Of a stretch of 64,000 nt of DNA, positions 5,044-14,922 are shown one piece after another. Within the stretch, counting starts at the first letter, position 1. The number at the start of each line of letters is the position of its first letter. This DNA is from Actinobacteria bacterium HGW-Actinobacteria-1 (GTDB lineage Bacteria > Actinomycetota > Coriobacteriia > Anaerosomatales > Anaerosomataceae). The notes under the pieces are model-generated. The model was not told where the DNA came from. It searched no databases and saw nothing but the letters and a program-made list of their open reading frames with translations. The translations under genes and the position numbers were made by a program. The stretch is taken from positions 203,816 through 267,815 of the forward strand of contig PHFB01000002.1 of NCBI GenBank assembly GCA_002841355.1, in the 5' to 3' direction.

Positions 5044-5337
5044 TTGAAGGCTTACGAACTCATGCTTGTTCTCAACCCCAGCCTCGATGACGAGGCGCGG
5101 GAATCCATCCTGGCTAAAACCAGGGCTGTGATCACCGCTGACGGGGGTGTTGTCGATTCCGAGGATGCCTGGGGTAAGCGCCGCCTCGCTTTTGAAATCG
5201 ACAAGCAGACTGACGGCGACTACAACGTTGTCATGTTCCATGCGACCACCGCCGCCATCGCCGAGCTCGACCGCGTCCTGCATATCACTGACCCGGTCAT
5301 CCGCTTTATGATCCTCCGCCGCGACGACCTTTCCTAA
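5044..5337 (+). CDS. rpsF: 30S ribosomal protein S6
   Basis: Small-subunit ribosomal protein of 97 residues, starting YELM after the first two residues and carrying the conserved WGKRRLAFEI region (about 41-50) and a C-terminal R-x-M-I-L-R-R strand. The start is TTG 5044, preceded by a strong Shine-Dalgarno sequence GGGAGGTGA (5031-5039); no better ATG exists in frame. S6 binds S18 and 16S rRNA. First gene of the operon rpsF-ssb-rpsR-DUF2232. Confidence 0.96.
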   Translation: MKAYELMLVLNPSLDDEARESILAKTRAVITADGGVVDSEDAWGKRRLAFEIDKQTDGDYNVVMFHATTAAIAELDRVLHITDPVIRFMILRRDDLS

Positions 5338-7907: not shown

Positions 7908-7932
7908 ATCGCCTGGCATGACGGGGGTACGA

Positions 7933-9324
7933 ATGGCGTCGAGCGGCTCGAGTCTGGCGGATCGCGTACCGCCGCATAACCTCGAAGCCGAGCAGTCTCT
8001 GCTCGGTTCGATGTTCCTGTCTTCAGAGGCCGTCGAGACCTGTCTCGATGCGGTCAGCGAGGACGATTTCTCGCGCTCGGCACATGCGAAGATCTTCGCC
8101 GCAATCAAGTACCTCTACGGCCGGGGCGAGCCGGTCGACCAGATCACCGTCGCCGATCGCCTCCTCGCATCGGGCGATCTTGATGCGGCCGGTGGCAAGC
8201 CGTACCTGCTGGACATCACCGGCATGGTCCCCACCGCCGCGAACGCCGCGTTCTACGCCGAGATCGTGAAGCGCACCTCGCTTCTTCGCCAGCTCATCGA
8301 AGCTGGAACCGGCATCGTCGCCATCGGCTACGAGAATCCGGACGACATCGACGCCGTCATCGAACAGGCCGAGAAGCGCATCTTCGACGTTACTAACAAG
8401 CGCGTATCGAGCAACTTCCGCGGCATCGACGAACTCATGAAGACCGGGTTCGAGCAGATCGAGAAGCTCTACGACCGCAAAGAGCACATCACGGGTGTTC
8501 CTACGGGATTCCCGGACCTCGACAAGATCCTCGCTGGCCTTCACGCCGGCGACCTGATCATCCTCGCGGCGCGTCCCTCGGTGGGCAAGACCGCATTCGC
8601 ACTCAACATCGCGGTCAACGCGGCGAAAGAGGGGTATCCCACCGCCGTCTTCTCGCTCGAGATGTCAAGCGAGCAGCTCGTCCAGCGCATCCTGTGCGCC
8701 GAGGCGCGCATCGACTCGCAGCGCCTGCGCACCGGCTATCTGAACGACAGCGACTGGCCGGCGATCATGCAGGCGATGGGTCGTCTTGGTGCCGCTCCGC
8801 TCTGGGTCGACGACACACCCGCGATTTCGATTCTCGAGGTTCGCGCGAAGGCTCGCAGGCTCTTCCGAGACAAGCCGCAGGGACTCATCATCGTCGACTA
8901 CCTGCAGCTCATGCAGCCCCAGAACCGGCGTTCCGAGAACCGCCAGGTGGAGATCGCCGAGATCAGCCGTGGACTCAAGATCCTCTCGAAGGAACTTGGC
9001 GTGCCGATCCTCGCGCTCTCGCAGCTCTCGCGTGCGGTCGAACAGCGCACGAGCAAGCGGCCGATGCTCTCCGACCTTCGCGAATCAGGCGCGATCGAAC
9101 AGGACGCCGACGTCGTCATGTTCATCCACCGCGACACGATCGGAAGCGGCGGCGGAGGTCACGACGACTTCGGCGGCGATGACGAGAAGCGCGACGGCAT
9201 GCCAGGCAAGGGCGAGGCCGAGATCATCGTGGCCAAGCACCGCAACGGTCCAGTGGACAGCTGCTTCGTCGCATACCTTGACCGGTACACGAAGTTCGCG
9301 CCGCTCGCCAAGAACGTGCCCTAG
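7933..9324 (+). CDS. dnaB: Replicative DNA helicase DnaB
   Basis: Hexameric replication fork helicase, 463 residues. The N-terminal DnaB domain opens with P-x-N-L-E-A-E-Q-S-L-L-G, and the RecA-like ATPase domain carries Walker A ARPSVGKT (K219), where most homologues have M in place of V. The Walker B region reads IIVDYLQLM and the C-terminal half contains the L-S-Q-L-S-R-A-V-E-x-R motif. I choose ATG 7933 since GGGGG (7923-7927) sits 5 bases ahead; ATG 7918 is upstream of that site. No intein or DnaB insertion is seen. Confidence 0.95.
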   Translation: MASSGSSLADRVPPHNLEAEQSLLGSMFLSSEAVETCLDAVSEDDFSRSAHAKIFAAIKYLYGRGEPVDQITVADRLLASGDLDAAGGKPYLLDITGMVPTAANAAFYAEIVKRTSLLRQLIEAGTGIVAIGYENPDDIDAVIEQAEKRIFDVTNKRVSSNFRGIDELMKTGFEQIEKLYDRKEHITGVPTGFPDLDKILAGLHAGDLIILAARPSVGKTAFALNIAVNAAKEGYPTAVFSLEMSSEQLVQRILCAEARIDSQRLRTGYLNDSDWPAIMQAMGRLGAAPLWVDDTPAISILEVRAKARRLFRDKPQGLIIVDYLQLMQPQNRRSENRQVEIAEISRGLKILSKELGVPILALSQLSRAVEQRTSKRPMLSDLRESGAIEQDADVVMFIHRDTIGSGGGGHDDFGGDDEKRDGMPGKGEAEIIVAKHRNGPVDSCFVAYLDRYTKFAPLAKNVP

Positions 9325-9339
9325 GCACTTCTCGGGAGG

Positions 9340-9582
9340 CTAGGCCTTCAGCAGCTTCTCGAACTCGGCAGGGCTCCAGCCCACCATCGCGCGCTCGCCC
9401 ACCTGGATGACCGGCACACCATACTGCCCTGTCATCGTCACCATGCGCTTCAGTCCCGCCTTGTCTTTCGCCACGTCCACATCGGTGAACTTGACGCCGT
9501 TTTCCGCGAAGTACCTCTTCGCGTACGTGCAGTACGGTCAAGTGGCGGTGGTGAAGATCGTGACGCGCTTCTGCTCGGCCAT
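9340..9582 (-). CDS. Glutaredoxin-like selenoprotein (UPYC active site, UGA read as Sec)
   Basis: An 80-residue thiol/selenol oxidoreductase on the reverse strand. Reading from ATG 9582, residues 1-14 (VTIFTTAT at 7-14) match the beta-1 of NrdH/glutaredoxins. Codon 15 is TGA (9540-9538), and the frame continues PYCTYAKRYF and on to a GVPVIQVG cis-Pro loop (about 56-63), a W-S-P-x-E-F helix and a TAG stop. The UGA falls exactly where the first Cys of the CPYC motif belongs, giving U-P-Y-C. A strong GGAGGTG site precedes the start. A SECIS-like hairpin lies 14 bases after the UGA. Glutaredoxin selenoproteins are known in anaerobes. Standard gene callers would truncate or skip it. It diverges from an FAD oxidoreductase. 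Confidence 0.85.
9505..9523 (-). promoter_or_regulatory. Bacterial SECIS-like hairpin in the glutaredoxin ORF
   Basis: On the coding (reverse) strand, CGCGAAG (9523-9517) pairs perfectly with CTTCGCG (9511-9505), closing a five-base AGGTA loop. The loop begins 21 bases after the UGA (9540-9538) and has G at its second position. Bacterial SECIS elements are short stem-loops immediately downstream of the UGA with a G in the first loop bases, bound by SelB. The geometry fits; SelB itself is not encoded in this window. Confidence 0.7.
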
Positions 9583-9711
9583 GGGGCACCTCCGTTGCGT
9601 TGGACGCACAGTACGTCCCCGAGCTGAGGGCCTCGCTAACCCGCCAGGGGGGCGACAGCCAATGCTCATCGTGGTATGAACCAGTCGTGTGATTCCGAGG
9701 AAGGGACATCC

Positions 9712-11100
9712 ATGACCGAGCAGCGCTACGACGTCGTCATCGTCGGTGCTGGCCCCGCGGGCATCTTCGCAGCGATCGAGCTCGTCAGGTCCGGTCGCGT
9801 GAAGAAGATCCTCGTGGCCGAGCGGGGCAAGCCGATCGCGAAGCGGAAGTGTCCCGCGCGCCAGACGCACTGCATCGGGTGCGAGACGTGCGCGATCATG
9901 ACCGGGTGGGGCGGCGCAGGCGCCTTCTCGGACGGGAAGCTCACACTCACCACTGAAGTCGGCGGGTGGCTCGGCGACTACATCGGCACCGAGAACCTCG
10001 AGCGCCTCATCGACGACGCCGACAAGCTGTGGCTGGAGTTCGGTGCCACCACCGAGGTGCACTCGCCCGACCCCGAGACCGCCGCGCGCCTGTCGCGCGA
10101 GGCGACGCTCGCCGAGATGCGCCTCATCCCGATGCGCATTCGCCACATCGGGACCGACCGCTCGCCGGCCGTCCTCCAGGCGATGCACGACTACCTCGCC
10201 GAGCAGGGCGTGGACGTGCGGCTTTCCTCGGAGGTCGCGCGCATCATCGCGGACAGCGGACACGTCGAGGGCATCGAGTTCTCCGACGGCACCCGGGTGC
10301 TTGCGAACGCGGTCATCGCCGCGCCGGGTCGCGACGGTGCCGACTGGCTCACGGAGCAGGCGCAGGCGCTCGGCATCGGGCTCGTCAACAACGCCGTCGA
10401 TATCGGCGTGCGGGTCGAAGTCCCCGCGCCCGTGATGGAGCCGCTCACCAAGGAGCTCTACGAGGCCAAGCTCATCTACTACTCGAAGCAGTTCGGCGAC
10501 CAGGTCCGCACGTTCTGCATGAACCCATACGGCGAGGTCACCACCGAGAGCTACGGCGACATCGTCACGGTGAACGGCCACTCCTTTGCCGAGGAGAGGA
10601 CCGCCAACACCAACTTCGCCGTGCTGGTGAGCCAGAGCTTCACGCAGCCATTCCACGAGCCCATCACGTACGGGCGCTCGATCGCGAGCCTCGCGAACCT
10701 CCTCGGCGAGGGCATCATCGTGCAGCGCTTGGGCGATCTACGCGACGGGCGCCGCTCCACCGCAAAGCGAATCGCCGAGTCGGTCGTCGCGCCCACCATG
10801 CCGCAGGCCACCCCCGGTGACCTCAGCTTCGTGCTGCCTTACCGCCACCTTGCCGACATCCTCGAGTTCCTCGAGGCGCTCGACGAACTCGCTCCTGGCG
10901 TGGCCGGCGACGGCACGCTGCTTTACGGCGTCGAAGTGAAGTTCTACTCCTCGCGACTGGAATTGGACCAGCGTCTGCAGAGCCAGGTCGCCGGTCTCTA
11001 CGCCATCGGCGACGGCGCCGGTGTCACCCGCGGGCTCATTCAGGCGAGCGCGAGCGGACTCGTTGCTGCACGCGCCGTGCTGGCTGGTGGCGTGGGCTAG
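9712..11100 (+). CDS. FAD-dependent oxidoreductase with Cys cluster (COG2509-like)
   Basis: A 462-residue flavoprotein. The N-terminal dinucleotide fold has VGAGPAG (residues 11-17) and E38 closing beta-2. A cluster K-C47-P, C54-I-G-C57-E-T-C60 follows, then GWGGAGAFSDGKLTL, a signature of the uncharacterised FAD-dependent dehydrogenase family COG2509. A second glycine-rich FAD segment (AIGDGAG) lies near the C-terminus. ATG 9712 is chosen because GAGGAAGGGA precedes it; an in-frame ATG at 9676 is further from any such site. The substrate is unknown. The four cysteines could bind a metal or FeS cluster. It diverges from the selenoprotein glutaredoxin. Confidence 0.82.
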   Translation: MTEQRYDVVIVGAGPAGIFAAIELVRSGRVKKILVAERGKPIAKRKCPARQTHCIGCETCAIMTGWGGAGAFSDGKLTLTTEVGGWLGDYIGTENLERLIDDADKLWLEFGATTEVHSPDPETAARLSREATLAEMRLIPMRIRHIGTDRSPAVLQAMHDYLAEQGVDVRLSSEVARIIADSGHVEGIEFSDGTRVLANAVIAAPGRDGADWLTEQAQALGIGLVNNAVDIGVRVEVPAPVMEPLTKELYEAKLIYYSKQFGDQVRTFCMNPYGEVTTESYGDIVTVNGHSFAEERTANTNFAVLVSQSFTQPFHEPITYGRSIASLANLLGEGIIVQRLGDLRDGRRSTAKRIAESVVAPTMPQATPGDLSFVLPYRHLADILEFLEALDELAPGVAGDGTLLYGVEVKFYSSRLELDQRLQSQVAGLYAIGDGAGVTRGLIQASASGLVAARAVLAGGVG

Positions 11101-12164: not shown

Positions 12165-13175
12165 ATGATCAAGGTCGCTGTGTGGGGCACGGGCATGATG
12201 GGCCAGGGGTTGCTCGGCTATATCCTTGACCGCCCAAAGGACATCGAACTCGTCGGTGTGATCGATCGGCACCCCGAGAAGCACGGCCGCACCGTCGGTG
12301 AGGTCACCGGTCGGGAGTGCGATATTCCCGTGACCGCTGACTCCGCAGCGGTGCTCGCGCTCAAGCCCGACGTTGTGTGCATCCTCACGGCGAGCAACCT
12401 GCACCAGATCACCGATCAGGTCGAGGCAGCCGTGAAGGCCGAGGCGGACGTCATCTGCATCGCCGAGACCCTCGCGTACCCCTGGGCGACCGATCCCGCA
12501 TGGGCCGAGCGGATCGACGCGCTCGCCCGCGAGCACGGCGTGAGCGTGCTCGGCACCGGCGTGAACCCGGGCTTCGTGCTCGACGCGCTGCCGATCCTGC
12601 TCTCCTCGGCATGCCTGAGCATCGAGCGCATCGAAGCAGCACGCATCAACGACCTCTTGCCGTTCGGGCCCACCGTCATGGAGAGCCAGGGCGTTGGCAC
12701 CACCGTGGAGCAGTTCGAGGCGGGCATCGCGGACGGCTCGATCGTGGGGCATATCGGCTTCCAGGAGTCGGTCGGCCTCATCGCGTACGCGCTTGGATGG
12801 GAGATCGACGAGGTCGTTGAGACCCGCGAGCCGATCGTGTCCACCGTTGAGCGCTCAACACCGCACGTGCACGTCGCTCCCGGCAACGTCGCCGGCTGCC
12901 GCCACATCGCGCGCGCCTACAGCAAGGGTGTGCTCAAGATCGAGCTCGTGCACCCGCAGCAGATCCACCCCGAGCTTGAGGGTGTCGAGACCGGCGACTA
13001 CATCACGATCGTCGGGGAGCCGAACATCAGCTTCCATGACGGTCCCGAGATCCCGGGCGGCAAGGGCACGTACGCGAGCACCGGCAACTACATCCCGCTC
13101 ATCGGAGCGGCGCCCGCCGGCATCGTGACCGTCGTCGACCTGCCGATTCCGCGCTTCTGGGCACCGACCGTCTAG
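12165..13175 (+). CDS. ord: 2,4-diaminopentanoate dehydrogenase
   Basis: Catalyses NAD(P)-dependent oxidative deamination of (2R,4S)-2,4-diaminopentanoate to 2-amino-4-oxopentanoate in anaerobic ornithine breakdown. The 336-residue product begins with a Rossmann motif VWGTGMMGQG (about 5-14) and contains the GTGVNPGFVLDALP segment (about 129-142) typical of Ord and related dihydrodipicolinate-reductase-fold dehydrogenases. The AGAAGGAG site precedes ATG 12165. It is followed by ortA and ortB with very short spacing, the same functional grouping as in Clostridium sticklandii, which makes the assignment firm. Confidence 0.92.
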   Translation: MIKVAVWGTGMMGQGLLGYILDRPKDIELVGVIDRHPEKHGRTVGEVTGRECDIPVTADSAAVLALKPDVVCILTASNLHQITDQVEAAVKAEADVICIAETLAYPWATDPAWAERIDALAREHGVSVLGTGVNPGFVLDALPILLSSACLSIERIEAARINDLLPFGPTVMESQGVGTTVEQFEAGIADGSIVGHIGFQESVGLIAYALGWEIDEVVETREPIVSTVERSTPHVHVAPGNVAGCRHIARAYSKGVLKIELVHPQQIHPELEGVETGDYITIVGEPNISFHDGPEIPGGKGTYASTGNYIPLIGAAPAGIVTVVDLPIPRFWAPTV

Positions 13176-13184
13176 GAGGCACCG

Positions 13185-13511
13185 ATGTCCGACGTCGTTT
13201 CATGCAGCGCGGGCGACTGGGTGGAGATCGAGCGCGTCTTGCTCGAGCCCGCCGACCGCTCGACGAATCTGCCCGAGGAGACCGCGGCGCAGCCGCTGCG
13301 TATGTGGGTGAAGGGTTTCGCCCGCTTGGCTGCGGCTGTTGGCGATGAGGTCACCATCGAGACGATGACCGGTCGCGTTGTGACCGGCACGCTCACGGAC
13401 GTGAACCCCGGCTACGCGCACACGTTCGGCCGTCCCACGCCCGAGCTTACGCACGTTGGCCGAGACCTGCGCGACCGCGTGGCTGCCTATCGCGCGAAGG
13501 CGGGTGAGTAG
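13185..13511 (+). CDS. ortA: 2-amino-4-oxopentanoate thiolase, alpha subunit
   Basis: The small subunit (108 residues) of the PLP-dependent thiolase that cleaves 2-amino-4-oxopentanoate with CoA to acetyl-CoA and alanine. It begins 9 bases after ord with GGAGG as ribosome binding site. The conserved features seen are the N-terminal G-D-W-V-E-I-E-R-V-L-L, a K-G-F region (49-51), and the P-G-Y-x-H-x-F-G-x-P-x-P-E-L motif near the C-terminus. It is followed by ortB after one base. The identity rests on size, these motifs and the operon context. Confidence 0.9.
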   Translation: MSDVVSCSAGDWVEIERVLLEPADRSTNLPEETAAQPLRMWVKGFARLAAAVGDEVTIETMTGRVVTGTLTDVNPGYAHTFGRPTPELTHVGRDLRDRVAAYRAKAGE

Positions 13512-13512
13512 C

Positions 13513-14922
13513 ATGGCGGGAAAGACTGAGGCGATCCTCGCGCGCAAAGGCGAGATCATGAAGCGGGCGCTCGGCATGGACTACTCCCAGTTCGAGCAGA
13601 GCCCCATCGCCTTCGACTACGAGGGCATGATGACCGCGCACGGCTACTCCATCGACGACATCATCGGCATCCAGCGCGCCGGTGGCGTAGGGCGTACACC
13701 GCTCCTCGAGCTACGTAACCTCACGGACCTCGTGCGCTCCTACAGCGAGCCCGGTTACGGCGCTCGCATCTTCGTGAAGGATGAAGCCGCCAACATGGCC
13801 GGCTCCTTCAAGGACCGACGCGCAAGCGTGAGCATCCATGTCGCGAAAGAGAAGGGGTACGCGGGCGTCATCGCCGCAACCTCCGGCAACTATGGTGCCG
13901 CCGTCTCAAGCCAGGCAGCGCGGGCCGGTCTCAACTGCATCATCGTCCAGGAGGCGTTCGACTCGCGGCACGTGGGCCAACCCGAGATCATCGAGAAGTC
14001 GCGCATCTGCGAAGCGTTCGGCGCCGAGGTCATCCAGCTCACCGTGGGCCCCGAGCTCTTCAGCCACATGCTCGAGCTCCTCGACGACACCGGCTACCTC
14101 GCGGCGTCGCTCTACTCGGCGTTCGGGGTGTCGGGCATCGAGACGCTCGGCTACGAGCTTGCCGAGGAGATGACGGCCGTCACGGGCGCGCCTCCCACGC
14201 ACGTGGTCGTCACGCACGCTGGCGGCGGCAACACCACCGGCACCGCGCGCGGTCTCAAGCGCGCCGGCGCGACAACCGAGATCGTGAGCGCCAGCGTGGA
14301 CCTCTCGGGGCTGCATATGGCCAGTGACTCGGACTTCAACCGCAAGAGCTTCACAACCGGTCACACGGGCTTCGGCGTGCCATTCGCGACGTGGCCCGAC
14401 CGCGCCGACGTGCCGCGCAACGCTGCGCGTGCGCTGCGCTACATGGACCGCTACCTCACCGTCAGTCAGGGCGAGGTCTTCTACGTGACCGAGGCGATGG
14501 CCAAGCTTGAAGGCCTCGAGCGCGGTCCGTCCGGCAACACCGCGATGGCGGCCGCCATGTCGCTCGCGCGCGATCTGCCGGCAGACGCCACGGTCGTCGT
14601 GCAGGAGACCGAGTACACCGGCGCCGGCAAGCACCACTGGGCGCAGCTCAACTTCGCACGCGAGAACGGTGTGGAGGTTCGCGCGGGCGATCCCGCCGAG
14701 AACGTGCCGGGCAAGAGCATCATCATCCCTGAGCGTCCTGAGCAGATCCGCGCGAAGGACTTCGACCTGGCCAAGATGCGCCGAAGCTACGTGCGCAACG
14801 CGCTTTCGCACGCGCCGGAGGGCTACGTGCCCACCGACGCCGACATCGCATTCCTGGCCGAGGACACCAACAGCGACGCCGCCACCGTCGAGGAGACGAT
14901 CGCGGGTCTCAGGGCGACGTAG
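13513..14922 (+). CDS. ortB: 2-amino-4-oxopentanoate thiolase, beta subunit (PLP)
   Basis: The catalytic PLP subunit of the ornithine-pathway thiolase, 469 residues, related to threonine synthase-type fold II enzymes. The PLP lysine is K100 in NMAGSFKDRRAS, and the phosphate-binding loop is TSGNYG (about 119-124). A second Gly-rich segment T-H-A-G-G-G-N occurs near residue 236. ATG 13513 starts one base after the ortA stop. With OrtA it yields acetyl-CoA and alanine, the energy-conserving outcome of ornithine fermentation. It is the last gene of the ord-ortA-ortB operon; the next genes are on the other strand. Confidence 0.92.
   Translation: MAGKTEAILARKGEIMKRALGMDYSQFEQSPIAFDYEGMMTAHGYSIDDIIGIQRAGGVGRTPLLELRNLTDLVRSYSEPGYGARIFVKDEAANMAGSFKDRRASVSIHVAKEKGYAGVIAATSGNYGAAVSSQAARAGLNCIIVQEAFDSRHVGQPEIIEKSRICEAFGAEVIQLTVGPELFSHMLELLDDTGYLAASLYSAFGVSGIETLGYELAEEMTAVTGAPPTHVVVTHAGGGNTTGTARGLKRAGATTEIVSASVDLSGLHMASDSDFNRKSFTTGHTGFGVPFATWPDRADVPRNAARALRYMDRYLTVSQGEVFYVTEAMAKLEGLERGPSGNTAMAAAMSLARDLPADATVVVQETEYTGAGKHHWAQLNFARENGVEVRAGDPAENVPGKSIIIPERPEQIRAKDFDLAKMRRSYVRNALSHAPEGYVPTDADIAFLAEDTNSDAATVEETIAGLRAT

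Follow-up and report, generated by a model that had tools for sequence, protein, structure and literature searches.

A predicted selenocysteine-containing glutaredoxin gene at a conserved locus in the Coriobacteriia

Selenocysteine (Sec)-containing glutaredoxins have been catalogued since 2006, when they were listed for Geobacter sulfurreducens, Alkaliphilus metalliredigenes and Moorella thermoacetica (PMC1794560), and Glutaredoxin UxxC appears on a selenoprotein list (PMC13188914). The kind of protein considered here is therefore not new, and the statement of an earlier interpretation made from the DNA letters (the sequence-only reading), that such glutaredoxins are known in some anaerobes, agrees with their mostly anaerobic hosts. 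One such glutaredoxin, cGrx1 of Clostridium (Alkaliphilus) oremlandii, is a native Sec protein with a U(or C)PXC motif that has been studied structurally (PMC7642778).

The gene that we describe lies in a 64,000-nucleotide stretch (the window, to which all positions refer unless a relative is named) of the genome of Actinobacteria bacterium HGW-Actinobacteria-1, class Coriobacteriia. Its predicted product shares with cGrx1 the glutaredoxin fold and a Sec at the first position of U-P-x-C, which here is read from the gene, and cGrx1 (PDB 7c10) is among the closest solved structures (36–38% identity over 72–74 columns, TM 0.82–0.90). The two systems differ in host, cGrx1 being from a clostridium and the present gene from a coriobacterial actinobacterium, and in their partner: the partner or substrate proposed for cGrx1 is the selenoprotein MsrA, whereas MsrA was looked for in the present genome and is absent, which rules it out as the redox partner, so that the substrate must be a different one. 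With the Sec-glutaredoxins catalogued in 2006, compared by description only, the present gene shares the UxxC site, decoding at UGA and mostly anaerobic hosts, although those hosts are deltaproteobacteria and clostridia. Among curated NCBIfam models, the best is that of the YruB-type glutaredoxins (TIGR02196; 81.7 bits across the whole model), which should be taken as the nearest model rather than as a family assignment, as the score is just under the cut-off of 88.55 bits. The Uxx-star glutaredoxin-like models, which include selenoproteins, are related, and the product scores below both of their cut-offs (59.2 bits against 66 for NF041212 and 44.4 against 72 for NF041114); Uxx-star family 1 is listed as UxxT (PMC13188914), whereas the product here has a resolving cysteine, Cys18. 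We found no earlier report of a Sec-glutaredoxin from Coriobacteriia in the open-access literature, and the gene represents a well-supported addition to the family from this class.

Reading frame and conservation of the UGA codon

The gene occupies positions 9340–9582 of the reverse strand and consists of 80 codons and a TAG, with a single in-frame TGA that we assign to Sec on the basis of the translation, the Pfam match, the orthologues and an AlphaFold model. The start ATG (9582–9580) and the stop TAG (9342–9340) were read from the sequence, and a Shine-Dalgarno-like GGAGGTG (9587–9593, reverse strand), retained in most congeners, is found 4 nt 5' of the ATG. The UGA (9538–9540) is the codon of residue 15, the first position of U-P-Y-C, while the codon of the resolving Cys18 of that motif (9529–9531) is invariant across 24 aligned rows; the codon of cis-Pro57 (9412–9414) belongs to a GVPV loop in which V56-P57-V58 is invariant in the alignment. 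With TGA translated as U, the product reads MAEQKRVTIFTTATUPYCTYAKRYFAENGVKFTDVDVAKDKAGLKRMVTMTGQYGVPVIQVGERAMVGWSPAEFEKLLKA, matches Pfam Glutaredoxin (PF00462, E 3.6e-15) and is modelled with a thioredoxin-type fold (mean pLDDT 83.8), for which the top PDB matches by Foldseek are glutaredoxins. The product thus combines, in the model, the thioredoxin fold with the [CU]-P-x-C motif and the cis-Pro loop by which glutaredoxins are recognized. The sequence-only reading had proposed that read-through of the TGA at 9540–9538 gives a complete NrdH/glutaredoxin-like protein with a U-P-Y-C active site, a good start, a GGAGGTG site and a cis-Pro loop. All of these features are present and the assignment to the glutaredoxins stands, whereas the NrdH part does not, as the NrdH-redoxin model (TIGR02194) yields 41 bits against a cut-off of 85.75 and the YruB-type model scores best.

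Gene-calling programs that treat every UGA as a stop would overlook this gene. Two other open reading frames, one of 372 aa (9538–10656, reverse strand) that terminates at the Sec UGA and one of 161 aa that is out of frame (9224–9709, reverse strand), could each divert such a program from it. When the window was scanned for other TGA codons followed by a hairpin, one more candidate came up (TGA at 5129); it lies in another frame of the open reading frame at 5044–5337 and was dismissed as chance.

The gene is convergent with dnaB, which encodes the replicative helicase (7918–9324, forward strand) and marks the shared locus, and divergent from a gene for an FAD-dependent oxidoreductase (9676–11100, forward strand) that was identified by matches to PF07992 and PF21688 and by synteny. 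Genes of ornithine degradation follow the FAD gene (12165–14922), namely those for 2,4-diaminopentanoate dehydrogenase and the 2-amino-4-oxopentanoate thiolase subunit OrtA, together with a pyridoxal-enzyme-like open reading frame that is perhaps OrtB; this set suggests amino-acid fermentation.

A search of 69 genomes of the order for orthologues returned 27 matches. Eleven of these, from the present genome and ten relatives that are Anaerosomatales/Coriobacteriia drafts, carry TGA as the codon for residue 15, and 14 carry TGC or TGT there. Each of these 25 genes adjoins dnaB, the FAD gene or both, which makes the Sec and Cys forms orthologues at one syntenic site. The two remaining matches are a Cys-type paralogue at a different location (G042) and a copy with CGA at the Sec codon (G027). 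The in-frame UGA is therefore aligned to the Cys of homologues, as expected of a selenoprotein gene, and the alignment with Cys-containing homologues that the sequence-only reading had recommended places their Cys at residue 15. Past the TGA, the frame is intact in the ten relatives, with the copy in G015 ending at a contig edge, and dN/dS against four congeners, calculated for the frame after the TGA without the hairpin region, is 0.07, 0.20, 0.135 and 0.13. Such low values indicate that the downstream frame is selected as protein and, with the same codon in 11 genomes, that the TGA did not arise by chance.

The alternative that the gene is a pseudogene, or that its TGA is a TGC or TGT misread in sequencing or assembly, finds some support in decayed copies in two relatives. 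In G016 (L096, about 1265–1360), a remnant is left in which the beginning of the gene and its C-terminal part stand on either side of an internal deletion by which both the UGA and the hairpin were lost. In G027 (L043, match at 1501–1689), the Sec codon has become CGA and the Cys codon CGC, so that both active-site residues are lost, and the C-terminus is shortened, while most of the hairpin sequence is kept (GGCGAAGAGGTACGTCGCC); this copy is probably what is left of a Sec gene after decay, its SECIS persisting as a fossil, or else an artefact of a draft assembly. Degradation downstream of the UGA in related strains had indeed been named beforehand as evidence against a selenoprotein. However, the TGA codon itself is gone from both decayed copies, while ten relatives keep the TGA together with an intact frame. 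Given that the same TGA recurs in 11 separately assembled genomes, that purifying selection downstream of it is strong and that the hairpin described below goes with the TGA rather than with Cys, we consider a pseudogene or an error highly improbable.

The hairpin and the selenocysteine machinery

The SECIS-type hairpin CGCGAAG-AGGTA-CTTCGCG (9505–9523, reverse strand) begins 14 nt 3' of the UGA and has a 7-bp stem and the loop AGGTA. Its position just 3' of the UGA and the G near the start of its apical loop are as in bacterial SECIS elements, for which it is thus a candidate, and the perfect 7-bp hairpin with a G-containing loop that had been reported 14 bases past the UGA was found as described and proved to be specific to TGA genes. 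Six or seven of the 7 pairs and the AG of the loop are found in all 11 TGA genes, the inner six pairs being invariant (GCGAAG-AG(G/T)TA-CTTCGC), whereas none of 15 Cys genes has the hairpin (at most 5 pairs). Where an Arg is encoded at +8, the codon is the rare AGG in all nine genes, compared to 5 of 49 Arg codons elsewhere in the same genes, and the two TGA genes with no Arg at this position use Ser AGT, which preserves the AG loop. It should be noted that these hairpin and codon counts come from related genes and are not independent, although synonymous divergence among them is large (dS 0.36–1.6).

The stem alone is cheap evidence, as the peptide AKRYFA favours pairing. Synonymous recoding of the same peptide reached at least 6 pairs in 63% of trials, and the minimum free energy of the 49-nt stretch shows no signal when compared to shuffled sequences (z −0.41). 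Both results agree with a by-product of the peptide and its codon usage, in which case SelB would recognise something else and the protein would nonetheless be a selenoprotein. That the hairpin arose in this manner is, however, quite unlikely when the AGG bias and the AG loop in 11 of 11 genes are considered; recoding gave the AG loop in 4% of trials, and stem and loop together in 2.8%. The peptide itself also changes with the TGA: each of the ten TGA rows that were tallied has Phe at +10, where the Cys genes mostly have Leu or Met, a pattern suggesting that the protein sequence is under constraint from the hairpin. As the inner six pairs are invariant, there is no stem covariation to count and base-pairing is deduced from conservation; the weight of the hairpin as evidence thus comes from its presence in every TGA gene and its absence from the Cys genes.

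The machinery for Sec is complete in the present genome, where selD, selA, selB and a tRNA-Sec with the anticodon UCA lie within ~9 kb of one contig (C8), all above curated cut-offs (selB 377.7 bits against 242, selA 611 against 268, selD 366). The presence of these four genes elsewhere in the genome had been predicted by the sequence-only reading, which had also named a lack of selB and tRNA-Sec as evidence to the contrary; both are present. Among the genomes with a TGA gene, 10 of 11 encode selB and tRNA-Sec. Neither was found in the remaining one, G020, a draft that is 86% complete and in ~210 contigs.

Read-through or suppression of the UGA might instead place an ordinary amino acid, such as Cys or Trp, at residue 15; no selenium would then be involved, and the Cys orthologues do show that Cys is workable there. 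This explanation leaves unexplained a complete Sec machinery and a SECIS-type hairpin with a constrained loop. Moreover, UGA is not generally reassigned: the syntenic orthologues in G007 and G026 stop at TGA. We thus give insertion of an ordinary amino acid next to no credence.

Two further observations concern the machinery genes. The selD gene (G000:C8:24342, L070) has an in-frame TGA of its own; the hairpin that comes after it has the loop CGGGT, with G second as in the glutaredoxin loop, and selD itself appears to be a selenoprotein gene. In G026, a second tRNA-Sec-like match (G026:C23:4632–4717) is found besides the main one, with 49.4 bits, barely above the gathering score.

Proposed function and exchange of selenocysteine and cysteine

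We consider, with a probability of about 0.95, that the gene encodes a selenoprotein of the glutaredoxin fold. During its translation, SelB carrying Sec-tRNA-Sec (anticodon UCA) would bind the hairpin just past the UGA, and Sec would be inserted at residue 15. By analogy with glutaredoxins (PMC7642778), the U15 selenolate may act as the nucleophile on a substrate disulfide or another oxidised thiol, and Cys18 would then resolve the selenenylsulfide, after which an upstream reductant would recycle the protein. The most plausible reductant is thioredoxin reductase, which is encoded in the same genome; the divergent FAD oxidoreductase, as an alternative reductant or functional partner, is speculative.

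When the active-site column is left out of the protein tree, a single change separates the Sec and Cys forms (support 88/84), compared to an average of 8.4 changes when the labels are shuffled. Rooting on distant relatives nests the Cys form within the Sec form, but a tree in which Sec is constrained to a single clade is not rejected (p-AU 0.417), so that the direction suggested by the rooting is tentative. An origin of the Cys form through loss of the Sec machinery was rejected: selB is present in 9 of the 14 genomes with Cys orthologues, and tRNA-Sec in three of the five that lack a selB match. As most Cys genomes thus retain selB or tRNA-Sec, the use of Cys is not simply a result of machinery loss. 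In a wider scenario, the Sec form would be ancestral in the order and would have been swapped once for Cys at an unmoved locus with the Sec machinery retained, so that the exchange was driven by function, and the FAD oxidoreductase would be a dedicated reductase, forming with the glutaredoxin a redox pair not yet described. We regard this scenario as unlikely.

The gene is also absent from a part of the family. Twelve genomes of the same family without the gene were examined, and in these dnaB and the FAD gene lie close together with no match to it between them. A search of 398 genomes of the class Coriobacteriia gave no member of this particular glutaredoxin family outside the order at E 1e-15. 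One syntenic site is found in Sec, Cys, deleted and decayed states, with the Sec machinery in most of the Cys-carrying genomes; this is a natural experiment, and the locus makes the question of why lineages keep or give up selenocysteine directly testable. Between the glutaredoxin remnant and dnaB in G016 (L096, about 770–1275), there is an open reading frame with a start that resembles a CoA-binding protein (AIAIIGASADRAKFGNKAVRAYAAEGW), and a stretch resembling it is found in G007 (L050).
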